Origin: a virus
Virus record (IMG/VR): IMGVR_UViG_3300031566_000057
Span: 1-50,862 of that record
Length of the DNA stretch: 50,862 nucleotides
Reading direction: 5' to 3' (one strand)
Part shown: positions 1 through 50,862 of the stretch, in pieces
Layout: each line of letters starts with the position of its first letter
Numbering within the stretch: position 1 is the stretch's first letter
Translations under genes and position numbers: made by a program
The notes under the pieces: generated by a model
What the model saw: the letters and a program-made list of their open reading frames with translations, nothing else
Told to the model about the DNA's origin: nothing
The model's database searches: none

Positions 1-136
1 TGGTGTCGATTGGGCGAGGGCGTATGAGGTCGAAAAACCGGCAACGGCGAACCTCAACTACTTCGCCGGGCTGGTTGCTGGAGAGTCCGATTCCAAGACG
101 GGTCCGTGCTGGGTCAACATTATTGTGCCCGGCTCG
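1..136. repeat. terminal direct overlap, left copy
   Basis: Bases 1-136 match 50727-50862 with a single difference (G at 127, A at 50853). The reading frame running off the right edge continues in frame here. This is expected for a circular or circularly permuted genome assembled as a line, giving a unit length of about 50,726 bp. A true short terminal repeat is the alternative, but it would lie inside a coding sequence, which makes an assembly overlap likelier. Confidence 0.9.
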
Positions 137-535
137 CCGCCTGGGGTCCTTTGCAAGGCGTGGACCTACGTAAGCTCCACGATTCTCACGACTCGGCTGG
201 CGGTCACTAACGATCAGTGGTATCTGACCACGGCCAGTTCCTCGACCGTCACGGTTGCAAGGGCGATGCAGACGTTGAACACCGCATCCACCGCCGCTCT
301 GACGTTGTGCCAACTGGAAGGTGCGCCGAGTGGGGGGATCGATGTTGTCGCCCTGGTTACTCCCACTGCCCCCACGCTTACCGGAGGCACCACTGGGGGC
401 GGGGCGGCCCTTGTTGGAACTACAGCATTGATCGGCGACATGCAGCGCGTCTTTGATGGCACGGCGAAGAACACAACGGACATTGCCGCGATCATCACGG
501 CGTTGAAGAACGCCAACCTGATGTCACTTACATAG
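2..535 (+). CDS. fibre/decoration protein paralogue, 3' part (5' part at 50599-50862)
   Basis: The frame is open from the left edge and joins the gene starting at 50599, giving about 220 residues when the circle is closed. The N-terminal domain is clearly paralogous to that of the 668-residue protein at 48550-50556: both share the LNYFAG, GPCWVNII and AMQTLNT motifs. This copy carries only one Thr/Gly repeat (TAPTLTGGTTGG) and ends with a short DIAAIITALKNANLM tail where the neighbour has long arrays. It lies after the major capsid gene and before a terminator, which suits a head-decoration or fibre protein, but no biochemical role can be read. The internal start at 125 is not the true start. 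Confidence 0.85.
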   Translation, partial: GVDWARAYEVEKPATANLNYFAGLVAGESDSKTGPCWVNIIVPGSPPGVLCKAWTYVSSTILTTRLAVTNDQWYLTTASSSTVTVARAMQTLNTASTAALTLCQLEGAPSGGIDVVALVTPTAPTLTGGTTGGGAALVGTTALIGDMQRVFDGTAKNTTDIAAIITALKNANLMSLT

Positions 536-4152: not shown

Positions 4153-6335
4153 TGGCTAAAGAGGTCCAGTGGCCGTTTCCCATCAAGGGATACGACGCGA
4201 ATTGGGCGTACTCGGATCAACCCCCGTTTACCACCCCCTCCGCGTCGAATGTGCGGGGGTACTCCGCCGACAGCGAGCGCGCGCGCGGGGGCTCACGACC
4301 CGGTATCAAGCAAGCCTACTCTCAGCAGGTGGGGGATACATCCAACCCCATCCAATGGGTCGGGTGGCTTGATAAAGGGTTTGGGGATACCGTCCTCTAC
4401 AAGGACCTGTTCGCCTACACCAATGGTGCGCTCAGCGGTCAGACTGCGTGGACTGGGGATACTGAGGTAGTCGTCAAGAACGGCTACGTCCACCTCAATA
4501 GCATGGTAACTGATAAGGCAGTTACCTATGCGAGCTTCGCTTCGGATGACTGGCAGGACTTCACCCTCGAATGCGACCTGGCGTGGAACTGGGGGTCTAC
4601 GGGTTCTATCTCCCTGTGGGTCTCCAGTGCCAGCGATGCAGGAACCGATGGGGCCAAGGTCACTGTGTCATTCACCAGCACGGAGATCCCCTCTCCGGGG
4701 TTGGGGTTCAGCAGCGTAGTCCAGATCGACCTTGCCTCTGGTGCGAACACGGACAAGTACACCGCCTCCTATGGGATGCTGATGTCCGTGAGGGGTAGTA
4801 ATCTCATTATCAAGGCGACCAAAGATCGGGTCACCGTCAATTGGCTCGGGGCGGAAGTGGCCTCTGTGGCAAGAGATGATGGTACTTGCGATCAGGCCGG
4901 GTTCAAGATGACCATGAGCAATCCGGTGACAGCGGCATGGTGGCCGGACACTCTGGTTGACTTCCGCATCATGGACTGGCTCCTGACGGCTGTGACACGA
5001 CCTACGACCTTGGCGCGAGAACTGGTGACTGTCTCCAACCGAACCATCTGGGCGGAGTCCGCTGAAGGAACGATGGGGAGTAGCTACGTCGATTCCAACC
5101 AGCTAACCTCCGGTATCTCCCTGATCTCCGCCGCGTACTGCAACGGGAACCTGTTCTTCCTGGATGGTACTCAGCCCTTGTGGTACAATCCTATGGCTGC
5201 CTCCGATTCGGTTGTTACCTGGAGCGCCCGGAAGGGGAAGATCGTCAACACCTGTCGGGGGATAGTGAACTGGCGCAACCGCGTTGTGCTGTTCAACTCG
5301 GTGGAAGACCCTCAGAACTACTACATGAGCCGATTGGGAGACCCTTGGGACTGGGATTACGGCAAGATGGACGCCGAAAGCGCCGTCGCCGGTAATCAGA
5401 CCATGAACGGGCGGATCGGCGATCCCATCAAAGCAATGTGCCCGATCTCCGACGACGTGCTTATCATCGGCTGCACCCGTTCGGTGTGGGCGATGTACGG
5501 CGACCCAATGGCGGGGGGGTACGTCACAAGACTCTCCGACCAGACCGGAATCGTCGGTCAGAACGCCTGGACAACCGACCCCCAGGGGAACCTCTACTTC
5601 ATGGGCGAGGAAGGTCTGTTTGTCCTTCCTCCCAGGGGAAAGCCGCAGAACCTCACGCGCCATCGGATACCGAGTCTCGGAAGCCACGACCCCGTAATGA
5701 CTGGTACTACCGGGAGCGCGGGGGAATACTACGTTACTCTGGCTTACGACGCCGACAGGCATGGTGTGGTGATCTTCCAGACTCCCTACTCTACTGGAAC
5801 CGCGGAGCACTACTTCTACGACATTCGGACGGATGCCTTCTGGCCCGAAGCCTATCCCACAACCGTTGGACCGACTTGTGCGGCCTTCTACAACGCCGCC
5901 GGTCCTACCTATCGCAAGCTCCTTCTGGGCGGGACGAACGGGTATCTGTACGAATATTCAGATTCCCAGAACTACGACCTTCCTACAACTGGTGGGACCA
6001 CGGCGATTTCAAGTTACGTCTGGTACACCCCCAGGCAGTTTGGGGGACCCATCAGGGATGCGATTGTCACGAAGGTTGTAGGAACACTGTCTTCGGGAAG
6101 CGAGAGTACCATCTTCGGGGTCTATGCTGCTGACGTACCAGAGACACTCACAGGGATGTCATCTGGGGTGGTGGGGTCTAGTGGCAACTGGACCGCGGGG
6201 TTGAACTACGCGGACAGAACAAGGGTAAGGGGAGGCGCGCACAGCATCAAGGTCTCCAACGCGACAGCGGATCAGGGCTGGGCCGTTGAGAATGTAACCG
6301 TCGAGGTCTTCCCCGGTGGGGAGTTGAGGAAGTGA
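4152..6335 (+). CDS. tail nozzle (tail tubular protein B-like)
   Basis: A 727-residue protein. The N-terminus ([20 protein letters not shown] followed by SNVRGY and [13 protein letters not shown]) is the hallmark opening of podoviral gp12-like nozzle proteins, which form the distal tail tube. A lectin-like beta insertion at about residues 75-275 is extra. The C-terminal half has repeated beta-propeller-like segments ([30 protein letters not shown]). The order adaptor, two small proteins, nozzle supports the role. The start has no separate ribosome site (TAATG). Confidence 0.8.
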
Positions 6336-7147
6336 GGCCCCCGAGAAACCCCCCAGATAAGGTAATCATCCAGCAGGGCGCTCAGACCCTAGACGAGGCC
6401 CTGCGGAACCTGCGCTTGGTCTACTCAGGGTCCTTGGCTGATGGTAGGTCGCTTGAAGGAGAGGATGGGGTTTATACTGTACGGGTCATTCCTCCCTTGG
6501 AAGTGACGGACGAAGGCTTAGTCATCAACCTGCACGACCCGATGATGCAGGTGCTTCTGCGGGTCAGGTTTGATAATGAGGACCCCGAGCTTGTTCTTCC
6601 GTCCGAGGTGGGAGTTACTGCCGGGGGGACGGCGGGCGTAACTTCGTTGCCCGCCCGCAGGGATCACGTACACGGCTTGCAGATGTTCGACGGGGTGCCG
6701 GAGACAGTCACCACCGCTGTAGGAGATGCAGGGACCACTCTTTCTCCGGCTCGCGGGGACCATGTCCATCAGGGCGTAGGATTAACGGGGCCTATAGGGC
6801 CAACAGGCGCAACGGGCTCAACAGGTGCAACAGGCCCTCAAGGGACAACAGGGCCAACAGGCTCAACAGGCCCAACAGGCGCAACAGGTTCAACGGGCTC
6901 AGCGGGTTCCACAGGGCCAACAGGACCAACAGGGCCAACAGGGTCAACTGGGGCTACAGGCTCGACAGGGGCTACAGGTTCAACGGGGCCAATAAGCGGC
7001 GGCGACAACCTCTGGACGTTCGTTGCGGGGGCCAACTTGGTGCATGGGATAATTGGCGCTGGCGGGGCAGGGCTTGTCGGAACCACGGTCAGTCCAGTGA
7101 ACACAATTGTGTTCGATCAGGCGGGGCACATACTGAGCGCGTCTTAG
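6332..7147 (+). CDS. collagen-like tail fibre protein
   Basis: A 271-residue protein starting at GTG 6332 in a 4-base overlap with the previous stop. Residues about 90-150 hold two copies of the PAR.DHVHG/Q-type fibre motif ([18 protein letters not shown]). They are followed by 23 uninterrupted Gly-X-Y triplets and a short globular C-terminus. Such proteins form trimeric fibres. Many Y positions are Thr, so the fibre is also a possible glycan acceptor. Its stop codon overlaps the stop of the convergent minus-strand gene by 4 bases. Confidence 0.85.
6788..6994 (+). repeat. collagen-like Gly-X-Y coding repeat, 23 triplets
   Basis: In-frame 9-base units encode GPT, GST, GAT and related triplets without interruption (23 x Gly-X-Y). 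Codon variation between units is modest, so slippage or recombination could change copy number. Confidence 0.9.
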
Positions 7148-38860: not shown

Positions 38861-40192
38861 ATGAAAGTCACCCTCATTGCAGGGAAGTATTTCAATTCCT
38901 GGGAAGCCCTTGGACTGGGGTACATCGGGGCGTACCTGAAGCGGCACTGTGATGTGGAATTGAACTTCTTCCATCCGAACTTCGACTCGGACCATGCCAT
39001 TCTCGAAGGCACCGCGGGCACCGATATTTGCATGTTCTCCTGCACCTCTCCGGCAATAGATTATGCCTTGACGCTGGCCGGAGCGATCAAGTGCCGGGAT
39101 CCCAAAGTTCGCACTGTGTTCGGTGGGTATCACCCATCGGCCCTGCCGGGGGATGTTAAACAAGCCGGGTTTGTCGATTACGTGGTTGTCGGCGAGGGCG
39201 AAGTTCCGGCCGAGGCAATCGTTCGGGGTTATCCATATTGGCGTCTCGACGGCCGCCGCATGTCTTTCGACGAACTCTCCTGGCCCGACCGGGAACTGAT
39301 CCGCAACGAGCGCCACATCGCCGTCGCGGAGAAGGATACGGGGCTCCGCATCACCTCCTTCCAAAGTCGTAGAGGTTGTCCATACGGGTGTAAGTATTGC
39401 CTGGACGGCCAGAAGGTGATGTACAAGGGCAAACCCTGCGAGCGCGACATCAAGGACCTATTAACCGAGATCGACTCCGTAGCATACAAGTACCGACTCG
39501 ACCTCATCAAGTTCTGCGATCCTACGTGGAACACCAATCCGCAGTACGTGAAGGACTTCTGCAAGGAAAAGATCCGCTGGAAGCTGCACATCCCCTTCTT
39601 TGCGAACATCCACGCCCGTAATGGGGATCAGGAGATGTTCGACATGATGGCCGAGGCGAACTGTACAACCATCGGCTTGGGGGTGGAGACGGGTTCCGAG
39701 CGTATCTTGCAGCAGATGGGCAAGGGAACCACGAAGGATGACGTGCGCGGAACCGTCCGCATGGCGAAGAACTCTGGCATTGGCATTCGGGGCTACTTTC
39801 TGACAGGGATGCCGGATGATGACAACGAGTCTCTTCAGGAGACGATGGACTTCGCGGACGAGTTGGAACTGGACGAATACGGGTTCACCATCCTCTGTCC
39901 CTATCCGGGGACCGCCTTTTATGCGGAAGACCCGGAGAGGTTCAAGGACGTGAACTGGGAAGGGGCTGACGAGTACCGCAACGACTTCTGGCGCACTAAG
40001 TACCTCACGAACGCGGAATTAGTTGCATGGCAGGACAGGTTGATGGAGCGCTTCTGCAAGAAGCTCACGGGACGGAACAAGACAGTAGGGAAAGGGACAG
40101 GAAATGAAGGTAGTGGTGATTCCCCCGGAGCAACCGGGTGCACTCCCGACTCCGACGGAGAAGGAACTGGTAGCCCTTCTGCAAGGCGCTGA
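38861..40192 (+). CDS. B12-binding-type radical SAM enzyme
   Basis: A 443-residue protein. N-terminal Rossmann domain (1-130) of the cobalamin-binding type, with GGYHPSALP and VVVGEGE but without the His of the DxHxxG loop. The radical SAM core has Cys173/Cys177/Cys180 (RGCPYGCKYC) that bind a 4Fe-4S cluster, then GLGVETGSERIL and GYFLTGMPDD. Relatives do methylations or rearrangements of unreactive carbons in sugars, lipids and antibiotics. First gene of the cassette; GGAAGGA upstream. The C-terminal 30 residues overlap the next gene and are low-complexity. Substrate unknown. Confidence 0.85.
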   Translation: MKVTLIAGKYFNSWEALGLGYIGAYLKRHCDVELNFFHPNFDSDHAILEGTAGTDICMFSCTSPAIDYALTLAGAIKCRDPKVRTVFGGYHPSALPGDVKQAGFVDYVVVGEGEVPAEAIVRGYPYWRLDGRRMSFDELSWPDRELIRNERHIAVAEKDTGLRITSFQSRRGCPYGCKYCLDGQKVMYKGKPCERDIKDLLTEIDSVAYKYRLDLIKFCDPTWNTNPQYVKDFCKEKIRWKLHIPFFANIHARNGDQEMFDMMAEANCTTIGLGVETGSERILQQMGKGTTKDDVRGTVRMAKNSGIGIRGYFLTGMPDDDNESLQETMDFADELELDEYGFTILCPYPGTAFYAEDPERFKDVNWEGADEYRNDFWRTKYLTNAELVAWQDRLMERFCKKLTGRNKTVGKGTGNEGSGDSPGATGCTPDSDGEGTGSPSARR

Positions 40193-40961
40193 AGGCGTAG
40201 TCGCGGGGACGGAGCAGTATACCCGAACCGTACTCTCGCAGTGTCCGAAGCTTCGCGTCATCTCTCGCATGGGCATCGGGGTTGATAACATCTGTCTGGA
40301 ATACTGTAAGAACCGCGGCATTACAGTCATGGCGGTTCCCAATGGCCCGACGCAGGCCGTGGCAGAACACACCATCGGGCTCATGCTCGCCCTGCTCAGG
40401 CATACCGTGGACAACCACGCAAGTATGTTGGCGGGGGCGTGGGAGCCGAAGATCGGGAAGCTGCTCTGCAACCAGACTGTAGGCGTTATAGGGCTCGGGC
40501 GCATTGGCTGTACGGTGGTCCGACTTCTCCGGGCGTTCGGAGCGAAGGTCATCGGGAACGAGATTGAGGAGAATCAGTTCAATGCTTCTCTTGGGCTGGC
40601 ATGGACCTCACCCATCGACCTGCTTCTGATGTCGAACATCGTCTCCTTGCACGTGCCGCTCACGGAGTCCACCCGGCACATGATTGACGATGTGGAGTTG
40701 GCCTGGATGCGGCCCGGCACGCTCCTTGTGAACACGGCACGCGGGTATGTGGTTAATGAAGGGGCGGTGTATAGTGCCCTCCAATCCGGTCATCTCGGGG
40801 CTTACGCAGTAGACGTGTTTGCGCACGAGCCCTATGCGAGTTTTCTGTGCGGTTGTCCCAACGTGTTGATGACTCCCCACATCGCCGGATGCACGGAAGA
40901 GACCTGGGAAATGATGCGCGAGACGGCTATCCGTCATTGTAACGAGGCTCTCAATGGGTAA
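40104..40961 (+). CDS. D-isomer-specific 2-hydroxyacid dehydrogenase
   Basis: A 285-residue NAD-dependent enzyme: cofactor loop GVIGLGRIGCTV (Gly130-x-Gly132-xx-Gly135) and catalytic Arg213 (NTARG), Glu242 (AHEPY) and His259 (TPHIAG). Closest in pattern to phosphoglycerate-dehydrogenase-like proteins. It could interconvert a 2-keto and a 2-hydroxy acid, a chemistry compatible with nine-carbon keto-sugar acids or glyceryl units, but the substrate is unknown. It overlaps the radical SAM gene by 89 bases; GGGACAGG before the ATG. Confidence 0.85.
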   Translation: MKVVVIPPEQPGALPTPTEKELVALLQGAEGVVAGTEQYTRTVLSQCPKLRVISRMGIGVDNICLEYCKNRGITVMAVPNGPTQAVAEHTIGLMLALLRHTVDNHASMLAGAWEPKIGKLLCNQTVGVIGLGRIGCTVVRLLRAFGAKVIGNEIEENQFNASLGLAWTSPIDLLLMSNIVSLHVPLTESTRHMIDDVELAWMRPGTLLVNTARGYVVNEGAVYSALQSGHLGAYAVDVFAHEPYASFLCGCPNVLMTPHIAGCTEETWEMMRETAIRHCNEALNG

Positions 40962-41301
40962 AGGAAGCAAGCGACGGCCCGGCAACACCGAAGCATACCG
41001 ACGGGGCCACAAGAGAGCTTTTGGGACTGGGCCGCGAGACTCCACCAGTGGCACCTTTGTACTGCGGAATGGCACTCTCGTACCTGGCAGAGTAAACAAG
41101 TGCGACAGCAAGAATATCGAGAGCCTTGCTGCGGGGGTACAGGCGGAACAAGCCCCACAGGCCCGGAAGGACATTGCTGAGGCAAAGCTGTCGGGGGTGA
41201 AGGTACTACCTAACGGCAACTACGTCTTTGCCACCCGTCGGGACAAGCTGCGGTTTCTGAAACACGCCAAGATGCACGATAGGGACGAAGTGAGAGGATA
41301 G
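40954..41301 (+). CDS. small basic protein inside the cassette, 115 aa
   Basis: Begins MGKGSKRRPGNTEAYRRGHK, a very basic start seen in small phage proteins near portal genes. The rest has a FVLRNGTLVPG strand pair and ends in a basic helix. It may be an original head-region gene around which the enzyme genes inserted. ATG overlaps the previous gene by 8 bases. Function unknown. Confidence 0.6.
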   Translation: MGKGSKRRPGNTEAYRRGHKRAFGTGPRDSTSGTFVLRNGTLVPGRVNKCDSKNIESLAAGVQAEQAPQARKDIAEAKLSGVKVLPNGNYVFATRRDKLRFLKHAKMHDRDEVRG

Positions 41302-41304
41302 GGA

Positions 41305-43536
41305 ATGATTACGAATTGGGACGGGGAAAAGCAGTTCATGATACCCTTGCACCGGGCGAAGATGGGGTTGGATGTGTTCCTCTGTTGCCCAGGACCGTCA
41401 TTGGCGGATGTGGACACCAGCATCCTGCGCGGCCCAGGTCGGTATGTGGTGGCCCTGAACACGGCCTACCCCGCAGTGAAGCCTGATCTCTGGATCGGGA
41501 TGGACCTACCTTCATGCTATGACCGGGGCCTCTGGTGGGAACCCTTCCCGAAGATCGTCGGGAACAAGTTCGCCGATACCCCCTTCGGGGGGATGACGGT
41601 CAAGGAACTGCCAAACGTCTGGCTACTCTCTGGTACAGGTACTACGGCGGCCGGTAAGGAGTTCTTCAGCCGCAACGAACAGAACTCCTGGCACATCTGG
41701 GTCGGGAACGCCTACACCACAGCTCTTCATGTTTGCATCTGGCTGGGTGCGCGGACGATCAACCTGGTGGGGTGTGACTTCGGGGGCAAGACCGACTACC
41801 ACGACGGGCGGAAACTCTCCCCCGAACACCGGGAGCGGAACAGGATACTCTATGAAGCGCTTGTGCAGGACACCAGGCTTCTGGCGGAAGAGGGGAAGGC
41901 ACATGGGTTGGAACTTGTCTCCTGTACGCCAGATTCTCCGATCAACACCTTCCTGAACTATGTACCTGTGGAACGGGCCATCGCCGCCGCTGAGGGCGCG
42001 ATACCATTACCTGTTGACAACCGAATATGGGATTCTGAAAACGCCGAAATGCTCCAGTGGTCTACCCAGCATGAGGGAGACGGGGTTGTCGTCGTCGCGG
42101 ATCACCAGATGGAGTGGATGTTGCCCTGGTGGTATCAGAACCTTCGGGAGCACAACCCCGATGTTCAGATAGCCTTCTGCGACTGGGGCATGACCGAAGA
42201 GGGCAAGAAGTGGTGTGCGGAGCGGGGGCTTGTCTATCCCGTACTCAAACCCGCCAACCTGATGCACCGCAAACCCTTTGCGATTCTTCATGCACCCTTC
42301 TCCCGGATCATCTGTATGGATGCGGATTGCGAGATCAAAGCAGATATTACGCCCCTGTTCGAGAGGGGGAGCATGTGCGTCACCGAAGATCCCTTCAACC
42401 CGTGGTCCAAGGACTATCGGCCAGTCCCATATTCGACGGGGATGATCGCCTGTCATCATGGAGAACCCCTGATTGACGAATGGGCGCGGTATGTGCTCCA
42501 ACCGGAGTTAGCCAAGGGGGAGGTCTGGACCGACGATCAAGCGTTCAACTTGATGATCGCGGACATGGAAGAGGGGTTAAGCGACACTTCACGCCTCCTC
42601 GTAACCCTGGAACCCGAATGGCAGTGGCTCCGCCTGGCTTCGAGGTCGGGGGACTCAACAGCCAAGATCATCCACTGGACCGGCGCAGAGGGCAAGCAGA
42701 TCATCGACCGGAAGCGCAAGGAGGCATCTCATGGGGTGGAGCGAGATAGTGTTACTACTGGTGGGGAGCATGATAATCCTGTGGTGGAAACTGGTCCGCT
42801 CGTCTCCATCCTGATGCCCGCCTTCAACAGTTCGGAGTTCATCGAGAAGGCGATCCAATCCTGTATCGACCAGACCTATCAGAACTGGGAACTGATTGTC
42901 CTGGACGATGGTAGCAAGGATCAATTGCAAACCGCCAACATCATGCAGATGATGGCCAATAAGGACAAGCGAATCCGTCCCTTCTTCGAGCATCATCGGG
43001 GCAGACTGGAGGCGCACAATCGCTGCTGGCGACTTTGTAAGGGAGACATCATTGCCCGGCTGGACTCCGACGACTTGCAGGAACCGACACGACTGGCAAA
43101 GCAAGTGGCGCATTTGCAGAACTCCACCGATTCTATCGTCAGTTGTGAGAGTTATCACATTGATCGGGATGGGGCTTCTCTCGGGCGGCGTCCATGTTCT
43201 CCGTTTGGCAACTGTGTCGAACTTGCCACGACAAATATGACGGGATCGGCAACTTATTGGCATCCTCCGCAAGCAGGGAATATGATTACGCGCTCGTTGT
43301 ACGAAGCGATCGGGGGACTTCCGGGAGACAACAACTACTGTACCGAGGAGGGGTTTCTTTACGCTGCCATCTTATTGGGACACACTATCGGCCATGTCCC
43401 CGAAGCCTTATACGTCTACCGTCGGTATCCCGAGCAGATGTCCCAGAATGACCGTTGTGGCGCAGACGAAATAGCATGGAAACAACAGTCACGTCGGTTT
43501 ATAGAAGAAATGCGAACTCGGGGACTCACGGAATGA
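41305..43536 (+). CDS. three-module glycosyltransferase (DUF115/MAF-like + GT-A + GT2)
   Basis: A 743-residue fusion. Module 1 (about 20-230): VFLCCPGPSLADVD, IGMD, WVGNAYTTALHVCIWLGA and LVGCDFGG, like DUF115/MAF proteins linked to nonulosonate transfer on flagellin. Module 2 (about 255-470): a GT-A fold with metal motif DAD (339-341, ICMDADCEI), resembling sugar transferases that use nucleotide-sugars. Module 3 (about 498-743): a family-2 transferase with SILMPAFNSS, LDDGS and DSDD (587-590). The modules could add successive sugars. Whether this is a natural fusion or joined genes is not testable here; the frame is uninterrupted. Confidence 0.8.
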   Translation: MITNWDGEKQFMIPLHRAKMGLDVFLCCPGPSLADVDTSILRGPGRYVVALNTAYPAVKPDLWIGMDLPSCYDRGLWWEPFPKIVGNKFADTPFGGMTVKELPNVWLLSGTGTTAAGKEFFSRNEQNSWHIWVGNAYTTALHVCIWLGARTINLVGCDFGGKTDYHDGRKLSPEHRERNRILYEALVQDTRLLAEEGKAHGLELVSCTPDSPINTFLNYVPVERAIAAAEGAIPLPVDNRIWDSENAEMLQWSTQHEGDGVVVVADHQMEWMLPWWYQNLREHNPDVQIAFCDWGMTEEGKKWCAERGLVYPVLKPANLMHRKPFAILHAPFSRIICMDADCEIKADITPLFERGSMCVTEDPFNPWSKDYRPVPYSTGMIACHHGEPLIDEWARYVLQPELAKGEVWTDDQAFNLMIADMEEGLSDTSRLLVTLEPEWQWLRLASRSGDSTAKIIHWTGAEGKQIIDRKRKEASHGVERDSVTTGGEHDNPVVETGPLVSILMPAFNSSEFIEKAIQSCIDQTYQNWELIVLDDGSKDQLQTANIMQMMANKDKRIRPFFEHHRGRLEAHNRCWRLCKGDIIARLDSDDLQEPTRLAKQVAHLQNSTDSIVSCESYHIDRDGASLGRRPCSPFGNCVELATTNMTGSATYWHPPQAGNMITRSLYEAIGGLPGDNNYCTEEGFLYAAILLGHTIGHVPEALYVYRRYPEQMSQNDRCGADEIAWKQQSRRFIEEMRTRGLTE

Positions 43537-43607
43537 AGAGGGCGCGGTCTATAGCGCGGCGTCTGGAGACGGGGAACTGATATGTCGTTACTGCGAGTGG
43601 CCGAAAG

Positions 43608-44378
43608 ATGAATGCCGCAATCATAACCGCACGGGGTGGATCGTGCAGCCTGTCGAACAAAAACCTCTGGCCGATCCTGGGTGAGGCGATCCTGTCTCGG
43701 ATCATTCGGACTGCACAGGCGGCTGATCTTGTCTCTGCCGTCTATGTGGATACGGATGGGAAGGAGATAGCCAAGTGCGCATCCCGGTGGGGATCGCAGA
43801 TTCTTGACCGACCGGAATATCTCGCCGAGGGCACGGGCAATCACGGGGAAGTCATCCAGAAGGCGGTTCGCGTCGTAAATGCCCGGCAGCGCGGGCACTT
43901 GGAAAACGTCGTGATCCTCCTCGGTAATTCCTGCATGTACGGCCCGGAACTCATTGACGAAGCTCTTGCGACGTTGCAGGCCCGCCCCGACCTGACAGGG
44001 GTGATGTCGGTCTGGCAGGCGGCAGACGACCATCCTTTACGCGCAATGGAGATGGACCAAGAAGGCATACTTCTTCCCTGGCGTGATCCCCATCGGGACG
44101 TGCCCAATAACCGACAGGCATACTTGCCCGCCTTCTTCTACGATCAAGGAGTCTGGGCGTTTCGGAAGGAATGCGTTGAGAAGCACGACGGCCCGAGTCC
44201 CTGGTGGTGGATGGGAAACAAAGTAGGCGCGATTGTCCGCCCGTGGATTGGTGGCAGGGATATTCATAACTTGTTGGATGTTGCAGTGACGGAGTGGTGG
44301 GTTGGAAGAAACATACGCAGACTACGTTCGGGGCAAGCGCCTGGTGATCGTGGGTCCGGCCCCACAGATCCGGGGTAG
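43608..44378 (+). CDS. CMP-sugar synthetase-like nucleotidyltransferase (NeuA/KdsB type)
   Basis: A 256-residue protein. The start AAIITARGGS (3-12), SNKNLWPI (16-23) and VYVDTDGKEIAK match the nucleotide-binding opening of acylneuraminate and KDO cytidylyltransferases (usual AIIPARGGSKG.P.KN). The signature SKG part reads SCS here, so activity is not certain. It would make a CMP-activated keto-sugar acid for the transferases. Overlaps the next gene by 77 bases. The 70 bases before it carry a remnant-like frame with a Cys pair. Confidence 0.75.
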   Translation: MNAAIITARGGSCSLSNKNLWPILGEAILSRIIRTAQAADLVSAVYVDTDGKEIAKCASRWGSQILDRPEYLAEGTGNHGEVIQKAVRVVNARQRGHLENVVILLGNSCMYGPELIDEALATLQARPDLTGVMSVWQAADDHPLRAMEMDQEGILLPWRDPHRDVPNNRQAYLPAFFYDQGVWAFRKECVEKHDGPSPWWWMGNKVGAIVRPWIGGRDIHNLLDVAVTEWWVGRNIRRLRSGQAPGDRGSGPTDPG

Positions 44379-44967
44379 CTGTCAGGGGGACTACATCGAC
44401 TCGCACGATGTAGTCATTCGCATTGCCAACGCACTTCCGATCCCCGAACACCTTCGGTGTGATGTTGGGTCACGAACGGATGTCTTGTATACCAGCTTCT
44501 ACAGTGGACCGAATCCCCAGGAATGTAACCCAGTGGCCCCGGAGATGTGGAAGGCAAATGGGGTGCAATGGGTGTGCCTTTCGTCAAAGTTTGACGACCC
44601 CTATATCTGGCCGGGATTGAATAGGTTCGTCGCCTTGAATGCCGGCCGACTCCCATTGTACATGGTTCCTCCAGACGACTGCCGGGTGCTGGAGGCCGAA
44701 CTAGAGTGTAAGCCAAATACCGGGTTCGTCGCCATCTGGGATTCGCTGCGGTTTGATATTCAGAGCCTTTATGTGACGGGGATTTCCTTCTTTCGGGGTG
44801 GGTATCTGACAGAGTACCGCCCGATGAATGAAGAGGAAGCGATGGCATTCTTGGGGAAAGGGGAACACAAACAACCGCCGCAGATTGCTAAGATGCGCAA
44901 GTTAGTCCAGACGGATAGCAGGCTGACGGTGGATGCAACCCTTCAGGCGATCCTGGACGAAACATGA
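44302..44967 (+). CDS. sialyltransferase-like glycosyltransferase (GT29-like)
   Basis: A 221-residue protein: LVIVGPAPQIRGSCQGDYID (14-33, the sialylmotif-L-like loop), then DSHDVVIRIANALPI and DVGSRTDVLY (54-63), as in bacterial/phage relatives of family-29 sialyltransferases. It would transfer a CMP-activated nonulosonate made by the protein encoded upstream. Start ATG 44302 is inside the previous gene, typical of this tightly packed cassette. ATGA overlap downstream. Confidence 0.72.
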   Translation: MEETYADYVRGKRLVIVGPAPQIRGSCQGDYIDSHDVVIRIANALPIPEHLRCDVGSRTDVLYTSFYSGPNPQECNPVAPEMWKANGVQWVCLSSKFDDPYIWPGLNRFVALNAGRLPLYMVPPDDCRVLEAELECKPNTGFVAIWDSLRFDIQSLYVTGISFFRGGYLTEYRPMNEEEAMAFLGKGEHKQPPQIAKMRKLVQTDSRLTVDATLQAILDET

Positions 44968-45653
44968 TCCTCTTGCCTGACGACCATGCGGTGTACATCT
45001 CACATCCCAGATGTGGCAGTCACACGATGTTCGCCGTACTCAAGAAGTATTATGGGGGATTGTTCTTCACCGGCGACGGATATCACAGTCGCATCCTCCC
45101 GGAGTCGGTAGCGGGATGGTATGTCTTCTCCACCTGTCGTAACCCCTATTCTCTAGCTGTATCCATCTGGCGCGCGACTACCAGTACGGGAAGTGACTTC
45201 CAGCGAGAGAGATGGAAGTTCTCTGAGCACATGCAGGACGCGGACGCGGATACCTATCTGGATGGACGTGCGGCGGGGAGTACGGAGAGTCGGTCATTCG
45301 GGGCGTTTGCGAGACTACTGGCGAAGACGGATTTCACCGACCCCAACTATCTGCTGATGGACTGCCGGTTCTCTCCACTGGCGTATCCCCAGCACATCTG
45401 GTTCTCCTTGGTTGTGTATCAGAACGTCTTGTGCAGGGTAATGCGATTGGAGAGATTGGAAGCGGAGTTTCGACTACTTCCGTTCTGGCACGGACCCAAC
45501 TTTCTTCCCAGGGCGGCTAATAGCACCAGTGACGGCAAGGGACCCCCGTGGCAGAAGTTCTACGAACAGCCTGGGGTGGCAGCGGACATAGAGAAATGGG
45601 CGGGAACGGACTTTGAGATGTTTGGGTACAGGAAAGGAAACTATCGTGACTGA
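44964..45653 (+). CDS. sulfotransferase-like protein
   Basis: A 229-residue protein. The P-loop-like PAPS-binding motif is HPRCGSHTMFA (14-24). A 3'-phosphate-binding motif is TCRNPYSLAVSIW (57-69), and it ends EKWAGTDFEMFGYRKGNY, the familiar C-terminus of carbohydrate-type sulfotransferases. It would sulfate a hydroxyl of the glycan. ATGA overlap with the sialyltransferase-like gene. Confidence 0.72.
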   Translation: MILLPDDHAVYISHPRCGSHTMFAVLKKYYGGLFFTGDGYHSRILPESVAGWYVFSTCRNPYSLAVSIWRATTSTGSDFQRERWKFSEHMQDADADTYLDGRAAGSTESRSFGAFARLLAKTDFTDPNYLLMDCRFSPLAYPQHIWFSLVVYQNVLCRVMRLERLEAEFRLLPFWHGPNFLPRAANSTSDGKGPPWQKFYEQPGVAADIEKWAGTDFEMFGYRKGNYRD

Positions 45654-46329
45654 GGAATCCTGTGTAATGGCGGAGCGGGAGGTAGGAAAGTTCCGTCCCG
45701 GATGGCAACCGTTCTTCGACCGGCTTCTGGAGTTGCCGTTTCATTCGGTTGTAGACTTCGGATGTGGCTATGGTTTTCAGGTCCGCGATTTCGCCAAGGC
45801 CGGCAAGTCGGCAGAGGGTGTTGACAGGATCATTCATCCCTTTGCGAGGGCAGAGGCGGAGCAGAACGGCTACATACTCTGGGAGAAGTCCTGGGATGAA
45901 CTTGCCCCGGCAAGCTACGGGGCGGGCTGGTCGCACCACTGTCTTGAGCACTGCCGTGACCCCGTAGGTACACTTCATACATGGGGGCAAATCATCCAAC
46001 CTGGAGGCTTGCTATGTGTGATGGTTCCGATCCACCGCACTGATGCCCTGGCGGGACACATTGCCACGGGTTGGAACATCAGCCAACTGATGTACCTGCT
46101 GGCAGTCGCAGGATGGGATTGTCGGGACGGGGAGTTCCTGGTCGCCGATGAGACTATCGGTGGCATTGTCAGACGACCGGAACAAATGATTATGGCCGAC
46201 CCTTGGCAGGGGCTTGGTCCCATCCTTCCTCTGCTGCCCTTCACCTGCGATCCGGCGACAACCAGGGGGTTCGAGTACAAGACTACCAACGTCAACTGGC
46301 GTGGTAACAAATCCGGCACTACCCGATAG
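45646..46329 (+). CDS. SAM-dependent methyltransferase
   Basis: A 227-residue class I methyltransferase: motif I VVDFGCGYG (35-43), a conserved acidic/Asp residue after beta-2 (EGVDRI), LEHCRDPVGTL, and LCVMVPIHRTDA. GTG 45646 is preferred as start because AGGAAAGGA lies 8-10 bases upstream; ATG 45613 and 45667 are alternatives. Overlaps the sulfotransferase gene by 8 bases. Probable O- or N-methylation of the glycan or of a protein; substrate unknown. Confidence 0.75.
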   Translation: MTEESCVMAEREVGKFRPGWQPFFDRLLELPFHSVVDFGCGYGFQVRDFAKAGKSAEGVDRIIHPFARAEAEQNGYILWEKSWDELAPASYGAGWSHHCLEHCRDPVGTLHTWGQIIQPGGLLCVMVPIHRTDALAGHIATGWNISQLMYLLAVAGWDCRDGEFLVADETIGGIVRRPEQMIMADPWQGLGPILPLLPFTCDPATTRGFEYKTTNVNWRGNKSGTTR

Positions 46330-47367: not shown

Positions 47368-48492
47368 ATGGCAGACGGAATAGACATGAGACGCACTGCG
47401 TCCCTGTCGAACACAACCCTTATGGACATTCTGAAGAACACTCAGGATGTCGAACCGTATGATGGGAGTTTCGAGACACTCCAAAACCTGCACGATTACG
47501 AAATCTGCAACCGATGGATGGCCAAGGACAAGATCACCTTCGATGGTGGTACGTCCATCGTCCGTCATGTCCAGGTCACGGAAAGCGGGGCGGCCCAGTG
47601 GGTCGTGCCCTATCAGACCACCGAGCCCAGCGTTACGGACGTGCAGGCTCGGATCAGGGCGAACTGGTGCTATATCCAGACGGATTACTCCATCGCCCGC
47701 GAAGAGATGCTGGTCAACCGTTCGCGCCCGAAGCTCATCGACCTGATGAAGTCGCGCAGGCTTGCGGCGATGATGGACCTGGCGGAGCTTCTGGAGCTGT
47801 GGGTCTGGCGTTCTCCCACCAACTCATCCGATGCACTTCACCCGTTCGGCGTGCCGATGTACATCACGCCGATCATCACGGCACAGACGTATGGTCACGT
47901 CGGATGCAATCCCCTCTACAACGACACCTCTGCGGTGGCGGACTGTGCGGGGATTGACTCGTCCTTGTCGGCTTACTCTCGGTGGCGCAACTATGCCGAC
48001 CGCTGGAATCTGGCCGACAGTTTCGAGGGCGTGATTGAGGATGAGGATATCATCAAGATCACCCGCATGTTGCGTCGGCTGCACTTCAAGTCACCGACGT
48101 TCGTGACGGATATCGACAACGGTTCCTACAAGAACCTGCGTCTGTATACGGGCGAAGAGGTGATCGAGTCTCTGGAAGAGCGTGCCCGGAAGCAGAACGA
48201 TCAGTTGGGTTCCGATGTCGCCCGGTACGCCGGGGCTACGATCATCAAGAACCTGCCGGTCATCTGGATCGAACGGCTGGACTACGCGAACTCCTCGACG
48301 TATCCGTTCTACGCGCTCAACCACACCTACTTCAAGCCCTTCGTCATGGAAGGGAACTGGCTGAGAGAGAACGAGCCCATCAGAAGCAAGGGCCAGCACA
48401 ACGTGTTCACGACCTTCGTGGACGCGCAGATGAACATCATCTGCACCAACCGGCAGCGCGCGGGTGGGATCATCAGCGCTGTCGTCGCATAA
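47368..48492 (+). CDS. major capsid protein
   Basis: A 374-residue protein. Recognisable elements of HK97-fold capsid proteins of podoviruses: an N-terminal helix (NTTLMDILKNTQDVEPYDGS), long E-loop-like strands (GGTSIVRHVQVTESGAAQWV), a spine helix (AAMMDLAELLELWVW), and a beta P-domain-like C-terminus (VMEGNWLRENEPI). Gene order and size fit. GGAGGGG upstream. Confidence 0.8.
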   Translation: MADGIDMRRTASLSNTTLMDILKNTQDVEPYDGSFETLQNLHDYEICNRWMAKDKITFDGGTSIVRHVQVTESGAAQWVVPYQTTEPSVTDVQARIRANWCYIQTDYSIAREEMLVNRSRPKLIDLMKSRRLAAMMDLAELLELWVWRSPTNSSDALHPFGVPMYITPIITAQTYGHVGCNPLYNDTSAVADCAGIDSSLSAYSRWRNYADRWNLADSFEGVIEDEDIIKITRMLRRLHFKSPTFVTDIDNGSYKNLRLYTGEEVIESLEERARKQNDQLGSDVARYAGATIIKNLPVIWIERLDYANSSTYPFYALNHTYFKPFVMEGNWLRENEPIRSKGQHNVFTTFVDAQMNIICTNRQRAGGIISAVVA

Positions 48493-48510
48493 CCGGAGGA
48501 ACTCACACAC

Positions 48511-48535
48511 GGGCGCAGGGTCTACCCCTGCGCCC
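48511..48535 (+). promoter_or_regulatory. leader hairpin before the fibre/decoration gene
   Basis: A perfect 10-bp stem GGGCGCAGGG (48511-48520) / CCCTGCGCCC (48526-48535) with loop TCTAC, immediately followed by CGGAGG, the Shine-Dalgarno sequence of the gene at 48550. It could stabilise the mRNA or weakly terminate after the capsid gene. A shorter form precedes the paralogue at 50599. Confidence 0.65.
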
Positions 48536-48549
48536 CGGAGGGTTAACAA

Positions 48550-50556
48550 ATGACTCAAACCACGTACAAGAGTGAGAAGCTCTCTAAGAAGAGAGTCTGG
48601 TACACCGGCACAGATACCCTCTACGAAGGGTACGCTCTGTGCTACGACCGCGATATCGGCACGGTGACTGCCGTGGATATCGCGCGGGCTTACTCTGTTC
48701 TGAAGCCCGCGACGGCGTATCTAAACTACTTCGCCGGTGTTGTGGCTCCCGAGAGCGACAACAAGAAAGGCCCGTGCTGGGTCAACATCATCGAGCCGGA
48801 CGGTAGTGGTGGAAGGATCTGCAAGGGTTACTGCTACGTCAACGCCACCATTCTCACGACTCGGGTTGCAGTGACCGATGGGCAGTATTACCTCACTTCC
48901 ACAAGTTCGTCCAACGTGACGGTTGGCCGGGCGATGCAAACCCTGAACACGGGGACCACGGCGGCCCTGACGATGATCTCGCTGGAGGGGGTTAGCGCCA
49001 GTGCGACGGTTGATGCAGCCGCGCACGTCACCAACCTGACGAACTCCACTGGTGGCACGAGTGAGGCGGCAGAGACGCTGGCTGATGTCTTGTCTGCCCA
49101 GACGGCCCCGGACCTTACGGGCACGACTTCGGGTGCTGCTACCACTGTCACGTTCTCGGCCACGTCTCCCACCCTGACTGGTGTTACCACGGGAGGCGGA
49201 GTGGCCATCGTAGGCTCCGACACAGGGCCGACACTGACGGGTACGACCACGGGGGCGGCGGCGTCTGTTACGTTCTCCGCCACGGCTCCTACCCTCACCG
49301 GAGTCACCACCGGCGGCGGGGTCGCTATCGCAGGTTCCGATACTGGTCCTACTCTGACCGGCACGACCACGGGAGGTGTGGCGACTGTTACATTCTCCGC
49401 CACATCCCCGGCCTTGAGTGGTACGACCAGCGGCGGCGCAACTACGGTCACATTCAGCCAGACAGCTCCAACTCTCACGGGTGGAACCACTGGTGGGGGA
49501 GTGGCCCTAGTCGCAAGCGATACCGGCCCGACCCTTACAGGTACGACCACCAGTGCTGCGGCCACCGTTACCTTCTCGGCAACCTCACCCACCCTTTCTG
49601 GTACGACCAGTGGCGGCGCAACAACGGTCACGTTCTCGGCGACTGCGCCCACGCTGACCGGAGGTACGACTGGTGGTACTGTGGGCGTTGCATTCACCGC
49701 AACGGCACCGACACTGACGGGGGGTTCGGCTGGTGGGACCGTGGCTCTTATCGGCACTACGGCGCTGTATGGTGATGTCGCGCGTGCCTTCAACGCGACC
49801 GCCCTGAACACGGCCGACATTGCCAGTTTGTTTGTTCTGGACCAGCGGGTTGGTGATGCCACCGCCAAGAACACGGCCGACATCGCCAGCCTCTTTGTGC
49901 TGGACCAGAGAATTGGTGCTGCGGCAATGGCGAACCAGGCCGACATCGCCTCTCTGTTCGTTCTCGACCAGAGAATCGGCGAGGGCGTCAACCATGTCCG
50001 ATCCGACATGACCAACGCGGTTGCGGACATTAAGCGGTGTGCGGATGCAACGGCAAAGAACGCCGCGGATGTTGCCGCACTGTATGTTCTCGACCAGCGC
50101 GTTGGTGCTGCGGCCATGACAAACAAGGCCGACATTGCCTCTCTCTTTGTACTCGATCAGCGCATTGGTGCTGGGGTTGCTGCCCTCAAGACAGACATGA
50201 CGAGTGCCGTCGCTGACATCAAACGCACGGCGGATGCTGTCGTGAAGAACTCGGCGGACATTGCAAGTCTGTTCGTGCTCGATCAGCGCATTGGTGCTGG
50301 CGTTGCTGCTCACACCGTAGACATCACATCTGCCGTGGCGGACATCAAACGGACGGCGGATGCGGTGGTCAAGACCAATGCTGATGTCGCCGCACTGTTC
50401 GTGCTCGTCCAGCGATTGGGTCACGCGATTCTCCACCAGAAGGCCGATGTTGGGGGCATCATCAGCACCACCAACAACAACCTGACGGACCTCACGGAGA
50501 AGATCGACGACATTATCACCGCGCTGGAGAACGCCAACCTGATGGCGACTGCGTAA
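48550..50556 (+). CDS. repeat-rich head fibre/decoration protein, 668 aa
   Basis: GGAGGG upstream. Residues 1-150 form a domain shared with the next gene (TYKSEKLSKKRVWYTGTDTL, LNYFAG, GPCWVNII). Residues 185-404 are eleven exact 20-residue Thr/Gly-rich repeats (TAPTLTGGTTGGGVALVASD type). Residues about 420-624 hold seven repeats of a helical unit (ADIASLFVLDQRIG), then a coiled-coil tail. The plan is a virion-anchored, trimeric fibre with a beta-rich shaft. The Thr density makes it a candidate acceptor for the glycan cassette; this is inference. No enzymatic domain. Confidence 0.8.
   Translation: MTQTTYKSEKLSKKRVWYTGTDTLYEGYALCYDRDIGTVTAVDIARAYSVLKPATAYLNYFAGVVAPESDNKKGPCWVNIIEPDGSGGRICKGYCYVNATILTTRVAVTDGQYYLTSTSSSNVTVGRAMQTLNTGTTAALTMISLEGVSASATVDAAAHVTNLTNSTGGTSEAAETLADVLSAQTAPDLTGTTSGAATTVTFSATSPTLTGVTTGGGVAIVGSDTGPTLTGTTTGAAASVTFSATAPTLTGVTTGGGVAIAGSDTGPTLTGTTTGGVATVTFSATSPALSGTTSGGATTVTFSQTAPTLTGGTTGGGVALVASDTGPTLTGTTTSAAATVTFSATSPTLSGTTSGGATTVTFSATAPTLTGGTTGGTVGVAFTATAPTLTGGSAGGTVALIGTTALYGDVARAFNATALNTADIASLFVLDQRVGDATAKNTADIASLFVLDQRIGAAAMANQADIASLFVLDQRIGEGVNHVRSDMTNAVADIKRCADATAKNAADVAALYVLDQRVGAAAMTNKADIASLFVLDQRIGAGVAALKTDMTSAVADIKRTADAVVKNSADIASLFVLDQRIGAGVAAHTVDITSAVADIKRTADAVVKTNADVAALFVLVQRLGHAILHQKADVGGIISTTNNNLTDLTEKIDDIITALENANLMATA
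49102..49761 (+). repeat. eleven tandem 60-bp coding repeats (20 aa each)
   Basis: Eleven in-register units of 60 bases with consensus T-A/S/G-P-T-L-T-G-x-T-T-G-G-..., alternating between VTFSA-ended and VAIxGSD-ended versions. Sequence divergence between units varies, which fits repeated unequal recombination. The paralogue at 50599-50862/1-535 has only one unit. Confidence 0.95.
49807..50421 (+). repeat. coding repeats of the ADIASLFVLDQRIG helix
   Basis: Seven copies of a 14-16-residue motif (N/K-x-ADIA-S/A-LFVLDQR-I/V-G) spaced by variable linkers of 6 to about 35 residues. Longer linkers contain a second repeat, SAVADIKRTADAVVK. Probably a helical coiled-coil shaft. Confidence 0.9.
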
Positions 50557-50569
50557 GCCACCAATATGA

Positions 50570-50584
50570 GGGCGCGTAGCGCCC
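50570..50584 (+). promoter_or_regulatory. short leader hairpin before the paralogous gene
   Basis: GGGCGC (50570-50575) / GCGCCC (50579-50584), loop GTA, followed by the same GCGCCCCGGAGGGTTAA leader sequence that precedes ATG 48550. The shared leader shows the duplication covered regulatory DNA as well as the coding start. Confidence 0.6.
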
Positions 50585-50598
50585 CGGAGGGTTAATTC

Positions 50599-50862
50599 AT
50601 GGTGCAAACCACCTACAAGACCGAGAAACTCAACAAGAAGCGTGTGTACTACACGGGGACCGCCACTCTCTATGAAGGGTACGCCCTGTGTTACAACCGC
50701 GACTCCAACACTGGTACTACCATCACTGGTGTCGATTGGGCGAGGGCGTATGAGGTCGAAAAACCGGCAACGGCGAACCTCAACTACTTCGCCGGGCTGG
50801 TTGCTGGAGAGTCCGATTCCAAGACGGGTCCGTGCTGGGTCAACATTATTGTACCCGGCTCG
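50599..50862 (+). CDS. fibre/decoration protein paralogue, 5' part (continues at 2-535)
   Basis: ATG 50599 after CCGGAGGG. The 88 codons here (MVQTTYKTEKLNKKRVYYTG, YEGYALCYNRD, LNYFAGLV, GPCWVNII) are homologous to the N-terminal domain of the upstream 668-residue protein. The frame is cut by the edge and joins the frame at position 2, giving about 220 residues. Only one Thr/Gly repeat is present in the complete protein. Confidence 0.85.
   Translation, partial: MVQTTYKTEKLNKKRVYYTGTATLYEGYALCYNRDSNTGTTITGVDWARAYEVEKPATANLNYFAGLVAGESDSKTGPCWVNIIVPGS
50727..50862. repeat. terminal direct overlap, right copy
   Basis: Matches bases 1-136 except at 50853 (A here, G at 127; silent codon context is not preserved across copies, Ile-Val in both). 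Supports a circular map. Confidence 0.9.

Follow-up and report, generated by a model that had tools for sequence, protein, structure and literature searches.

A probable elongated head fibre with a Thr-rich repeat array, encoded beside the major capsid protein gene of a circular virus contig

Introduction

Why should a viral structural protein carry a long run of Thr-rich tandem repeats, and do these repeats serve as a carrier for sugars made by enzymes of the virus itself? The question is raised by a gene at positions 48550..50556 (plus strand) of IMG/VR record IMGVR_UViG_3300031566_000057, analyzed here over its entire 50,862 nucleotides (the window). In the original prediction, the repeats of a probable head fibre gene were described as mucin-like and proposed as O-glycan acceptors, with a cassette of glycan genes lying about 2.2 kb upstream. 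Head fibres with a defined architecture are available for comparison. In the homotrimer of phi29 gp8.5, small beta-barrels make up the base and the fibre is a helical supercoil (PMC6542822), and enhancement of cell binding through carbohydrates is described for Hoc, pb10, gp12 and gp8.5 (PMC7602432).

Results

The fibre gene and its neighbourhood

The gene comprises an ORF of 668 aa encoding a probable head-fibre or decoration protein, and directly upstream of it lies the major capsid protein (MCP) gene (47368..48492, plus strand; phrog_9953 major head protein, E 4.7e-11). As with gp8.5-type fibres, the gene is therefore placed in the capsid module beside the MCP gene, and this order is kept in relatives, with homologues of the N-terminal domain found directly 3' of the MCP gene in L015, L017, L035, L038, L044/L046, L078, G003 and G039. 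This position, together with the predicted match of the N-terminal domain to the base of phi29 gp8.5, bears out the original assignment as a probable head fibre gene.

Positions 1-136 of the window overlap positions 50727-50862 over 136 bp with one mismatch, indicating a circular (or circularly permuted) contig; as a consequence, an ORF beginning at 50599 resumes at the window start and stops at 535. The late operon continues across the contig junction. A GC-rich hairpin beside a GGAGGG ribosome-binding site precedes both decoration genes (48493-48552 and 50554-50601); the former was more stable than shuffled sequences (z -3.2), the latter not clearly so (z -1.3). An antisense ORF overlapping the fibre gene (48888-50135) lacks support and was dismissed as a shadow of the repeat.

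A predicted beta-barrel base

Residues 1-160 (48550..49029, plus strand) form a predicted capsid-binding base, delineated with AlphaFold2, Foldseek, VIA and profile A7. The AlphaFold2 model of this domain is beta-rich, with block-mean pLDDT mostly 73-93 over residues 11-150 and about 60 at residues 31-60. The top Foldseek match in the PDB was the N-terminal base of phi29 gp8.5 (6qyy; probability 1.00, TMt 0.64), followed by capsid entries of TW1, Pam3, BB1, Sf11 and XM1, although the E-values were weak (2.2e-3 at best, for gp8.5) and sequence identity was 7-11%. VIA gave Z scores of 12.7 with the Sf11 capsid, 11.9 with a TW1 capsid entry and 8.7 over 109 residues with gp8.5, and BFVD matches included DUF2190-family proteins as well as proteins named collagen-repeat or structural. 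The model thus suggests an N-terminal beta-barrel base of the gp8.5 type. With respect to sequence, no homology to gp8.5 or to a named decoration family was observed at usable E-values in 50,697 phage records, Pfam and PHROGs, and a sequence search of the PDB returned nothing meaningful; the protein is accordingly said to work like gp8.5 rather than to be gp8.5.

The Thr-rich array

The Thr-rich array (49108..49767, plus strand) consists of exactly eleven units of 20 residues with the skeleton P-T-L-T-G-x-T-T-G-G-x-x-x-V-x-F-S-A-T-x, which agrees with the number and unit length first reported. Anchored on P-[TDA]-L-[TS]-G, the units start at residues 187, 207 and so on to 387, every 20 residues with no exception in spacing, and P1, L3 and G5 are invariant across all eleven. 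The 220 residues include 70 Thr and 20 Ser (T 32%, S 9%, G 19%, A 14%, P 5%), giving the Ser/Thr-dense tandem composition (S+T 41%) of a mucin-like acceptor. Identity between residues was 0.49-0.58 at lags of 20, 40, 60 and 80 compared with a median of 0.15 over lags 3-89. At the DNA level Tandem Repeats Finder reported a double period of 120 nt, because two unit forms, TVTFSAT and VAIVGSDTG, partly alternate.

Between units the synonymous sites are near saturation (mean pS 0.69, mean pN 0.31), with pN lower than pS in 54 of the 55 unit pairs, and no frame shift or length drift was observed in any unit. Judging by these substitution patterns, the units are long-diverged and constrained by purifying selection. 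The saturation also makes slippage or assembly stutter improbable, and an assembly artefact as the origin of the array was dropped on these grounds.

Mucin-like acceptors are Pro-rich and have no regular hydrophobic pattern, whereas the array has one Pro per 20 residues and regularly spaced hydrophobic residues, with L3 in 11/11 units, V/I/L14 in 11/11 and F16 in 7/11. An AlphaFold2 model of the array, built as a monomer from eleven sequences with pLDDT of about 60, places three short strands in each unit. The description of the repeats as mucin-like was consequently not upheld. In VIA comparisons the array aligned with the beta-helix proteins EtpA (Z 16.1), HxuA (14.5) and the beta-helical antifreeze protein 3p4g (13.9); as repeats score high generally and can raise Z without true kinship, these modelled alignments are only suggestive of a relationship. 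The Thr-rich array would form a beta-structured shaft, predicted at modest confidence to be a beta-solenoid in which each unit makes one turn; should the fibre be a trimer, the array could instead adopt an intertwined beta fold. A role of the TxT ladder as an ice-binding face was also considered and dropped, the antifreeze match being one among several beta-helices with nothing further in its favor.

A second, predicted helical array

Downstream of the Thr units is a second repeat, absent from the original prediction, with units of about 21 residues (KNTADIASLFVLDQRIG...) spanning residues ~410-640. The corresponding predicted coiled coil occupies residues 421-661 (49810..50532, plus strand), as delineated by periodicity, predicted helices and repeat families. 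Hydrophobic periodicity at 3.5 residues was 2.04 compared with a 95% limit of 0.76 in shuffled sequences, and AlphaFold2 predicted helices at residues 421-521 and 529-661, with block-mean pLDDT mostly 67-85 and a dip to 51 at residues 521-530. Heptad periodicity and modelled helices together point to a C-terminal helical fibre of the kind seen in gp8.5. The ~21-residue units would make up a coiled coil some 240 residues long, or about 36 nm if straight.

A short paralogue and single-unit relatives

The next ORF after the fibre gene, also missed originally, encodes a short paralogue of 220 aa which is split by the contig junction. Its 5' part (50599..50862, plus strand) has the same N-terminal domain, with 75% identity to the fibre N-terminus, and continues into the contig start, where the 3' part (2..535, plus strand) encodes the remainder of that domain, a single Thr unit (PTLTGGTTGGGAALVGTTAL) and a C-terminal helix. 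Identity to the fibre N-terminal domain is 65-75% in the aligned parts, both proteins have the same C-terminal end (IITALKNANLM), and the fibre unit closest to the paralogue's single unit is the last one, with 15/20 residues identical.

Relatives were found only through a terminase alignment, which yielded at least 80 loci in one IMG/VR collection, some of them from phages whose capsid genes are related to those of the window; profile A7 detected the N-terminal domain in at least nine records. Four of the homologues resemble the short paralogue, having a single unit-like segment followed by a helix (G003, 214 aa; L015, 218 aa; L017, 231 aa; G039, 225 aa) and a conserved, IITALKxxGIM-like C-terminal end. 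Other C-termini are joined to the same base in L035, L038, L044, L078 and G038: a long extra domain in L035, lectin-like by eye and with no family match, nothing after the N-terminal domain in L038, and other C-terminal segments in L044/L046, L078 and G038. Compared at the sequence level, these varied C-termini on a common base are those of a modular surface protein.

No other contig with the 11-unit array was found in searches of IMG/VR and INPHARED. A search of IMG/VR with the core PTLTGxTTGG gave single copies in eight contigs and turned up no further array: G003, one meaningless-looking short frame, and six unrelated structural proteins in which the motif resembles the start of an Ig/Fn3-like segment, by eye and with no family match. 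Close relatives of the fibre or the MCP were not recovered by single-sequence pattern scans of IMG/VR, by an alignment of the two paralogues or by tblastn in INPHARED, and a scan of genome contigs gave distant terminases only.

The short form is the common one among the relatives listed, and alignment A9 suggests that the fibre is a short form in which both modules have been amplified. As the paralogue and four short relatives have one unit, both arrays would have arisen by amplification within a short decoration protein.

The glycan cassette and its presumed substrate

The cassette, included here as context (38861..46329, plus strand; Pfam and NCBIfam matches), encodes a B12 radical SAM protein, a 2-hydroxyacid dehydrogenase, an MptE-like/GT2 fusion, a PseF-like cytidylyltransferase, a GT29-like protein, a sulfotransferase-like protein and a methyltransferase. 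Its last ORF ends at 46329 and the fibre gene starts at 48550, which confirms the distance of about 2.2 kb. In outline the cassette is real. The GT29-like protein (44302-44967) scored over the Pfam cut-off for PF00777, the PseF-like match (1.7e-18) was below the NCBIfam cut-off, and the sulfotransferase-like label derives by eye from a P-loop-like N-terminus. The 41305 product, considered as a candidate Maf-type flagellin glycosyltransferase, matched PF01973 (MptE-like, DUF115) weakly (E 0.13; 12.4 bits, the cut-off being 34.6), while three of four homologues of this product matched the family, the best with E 2.4e-4. GT29 is mostly known from eukaryotes. No PF00777 match was observed in 14 control genomes, and the GT29-like query had no relatives by pattern scan and none in INPHARED. 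In one relative (L013:16025-18256) a GT29-like protein is fused to an MptE-like enzyme. A gene related to the 41305 enzyme stays near the capsid genes in G003, G039 and L010. In G039 (L111:9111-12841) the decoration gene is followed directly by an MptE-like/GT2 gene and then by a radical SAM gene, an order which puts the enzymes on the opposite side of the MCP gene from the cassette of the window.

We then consider whether the Thr units are the acceptor of nonulosonic acid-type O-glycans from this cassette, producing a glycan-coated head fibre. The PseF-like, GT29-like and GT2 genes have the same direction as the fibre gene and lie close upstream, the array offers 90 Ser/Thr residues, and the G039 decoration gene has an MptE-like/GT2 gene at its 3' side. 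In mycobacteriophages, phage enzymes are known to glycosylate the virion, as referred to in PMC12363180 and PMC12619734. Maf-type enzymes act on surface Ser/Thr with no need of a sequon (PMC11339370), which would permit such a target but also means that Thr density by itself predicts little.

Against this stands the distribution of the array. The check proposed originally was whether phages lacking the cassette also lack the Thr repeats, and among relatives in which no cassette gene was found this was the case in L015, L017, L035, L038, L046, L078 and G038, several of which are short contigs where absence covers the sequenced part only. Among the matches listed, however, the two informative cassette-bearing relatives also lack the array. 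In G003 (52.6 kb) the cassette genes encode a 41305-like/GT29 fusion together with a 44964-like protein, and in G039 (63.7 kb) they encode a 41305-like/GT2 protein together with a radical SAM protein; both relatives have a single-unit decoration protein with complete downstream genes. A comparable Thr-dense stretch was not found in any frame of these two contigs, which reached a maximum of 15-16 Thr per 60 residues compared with 22 in the window. Conversely, L015 and L017 (contigs of 8-10 kb), in which a search revealed no relative of the 41305 enzyme, retain the T-T-G core of the unit. Since G003 and G039 have some of the enzymes and no array, stacked beta-strands account for the Thr part better than a sugar-carrying role does; as neither has the whole cassette, the glycan link is weakened rather than excluded. 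An unrelated and strongly periodic NTGNLNTGNWNTG NTGxx pentapeptide-type repeat was observed in G039 (L149, G039:39700-59600, around 17439).

The low Pro content, regular hydrophobic positions and predicted strands described above also argue against a mucin-like acceptor. A NeuB-type synthase is absent from the genome, so that a nonulosonic donor would have to be derived from the host, and the target of the cassette may instead be LPS or DNA. The proposed acceptor role is thus unsupported by the comparison; what is left to it is proximity and composition, and we regard it as unlikely. The fibre itself may still be glycosylated.

A second explanation, which we also consider improbable, is that the virion is glycosylated elsewhere than specifically on the array, namely on the collagen-like GXT fibre, the short paralogue or a capsid protein. 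The collagen-like fibre gene (6332-7147) has a homologue in G003 which keeps the N-terminus and is without the collagen repeat. Thr residues of GPT collagen are proven O-glycan sites in C. difficile BclA3 (PMC7157674). Among the matches listed, a collagen match was present in 6/22 contigs with a 41305-related enzyme compared with 1/28 terminase relatives, but the two sets represent distinct phage lineages, and a single lineage seems to account for four of the six collagen matches, so that the contrast is confounded. Collagen GXT fibre genes lie about 1.5-7 kb from a 41305-like gene in L113, L115 and L120-L124. The proximity of the enzyme gene to capsid genes in G003, G039 and L010 would fit this explanation, while G003 and G039 carry enzymes and have no collagen match. 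The 41305-like enzyme and the collagen-like fibre are a possible enzyme-substrate pair, subject to the same confounding by lineage.

A compound explanation, in which a Thr beta-shaft is decorated by the nonulosonic acid-type cassette to give a glycan-coated capsid rod, the array having expanded to multiply acceptor sites which are single in relatives, appears quite unlikely. Relaxed neutral amplification, making the array a fibre filler of no specific function, fits its detection on this contig only in the searches above and the relatives that manage with one unit, but is very improbable given the synonymous saturation, constrained replacement sites and stable frame and length of the eleven units.

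Discussion

The gene at 48550..50556 probably encodes an elongated, gp8.5-like capsid (head) fibre, with a beta-barrel base, a beta-structured Thr shaft and a coiled-coil end, derived from a short decoration protein by amplification. The N-terminal base, as predicted from its fold, would bind the capsid exterior as the phi29 gp8.5 base does. The 20-residue units would form the shaft, with Thr at regular strand positions, as the monomer model predicts at modest confidence, and the ~21-residue units, whose periodicity was demonstrated, would form the long coiled coil. By analogy with gp8.5 the fibre may be a trimer. As the Thr content is accounted for by the predicted beta structure, the glycan cassette is not needed to explain it.

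Comparison of the short and long proteins suggests that the gene of a short decoration protein was duplicated and that its beta unit and its helical unit, each single at first, were then amplified internally, the ancestral short form persisting both in the neighbouring 220-aa paralogue and in the single-unit homologues of relatives. Judging from phi29- and Hoc-type fibres, the long form would probably position an adhesive tip well clear of the capsid, where it could attach weakly to host or matrix.

Both the genome studied here and its relatives considered together display both a short and a stretched capsid decoration protein, in which two unrelated short modules, one beta and one helical, have each been amplified about tenfold with both ends fixed. 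This provides a natural ladder for asking what sets the length of a head fibre and what that length is used for. At the same time, the main argument for a link between the cassette and the Thr repeats is removed, and better substrate candidates for the enzymes are pointed out.

With respect to known systems, mycobacteriophages share with this virus phage-encoded glycosyltransferases; as represented where PMC12363180 and PMC12619734 cite Freeman et al. 2023, the mycobacteriophage glycans are on the C-termini of capsid and tail-tube proteins. Mucin-like and BclA-type repeats (PMC7157674) are likewise tandem and Thr-rich, but the array of the fibre lacks GXT triplets and has 5% Pro, conserved hydrophobic residues and predicted strands. 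The adhesins Hoc, pb10 and SPP1 gp12 (PMC7602432) resemble the fibre in proposed role, that is, surface-exposed weak carbohydrate binding which aids attachment; these are built of Ig-like domains or, for gp12, predicted collagen, whereas the fibre would be a 20-residue beta array joined to a coiled coil. The decoration proteins of TW1, Sf11, T1, Pam3, XM1 and E217 are alike in gene position and in the predicted fold of residues 1-150 (Z about 9.3-12.7), while the matched chains are about 150-210 residues and are without long C-terminal repeat arrays. Phi29 gp8.5 (6qyy, 6qvk; PMC6542822) shares the capsid-gene neighbourhood, the beta-barrel N-terminal base, for which it is the nearest solved fold, and the C-terminal helical fibre, although no sequence similarity is detectable between the two. 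A fibre of the gp8.5 type would further be expected to bind quasi-threefold capsid sites as a homotrimer and to be dispensable for infection. To this architecture the present fibre adds the 11-unit Thr array, predicted to be of beta structure, between base and coil, and its predicted coil is built of ~21-residue repeats.
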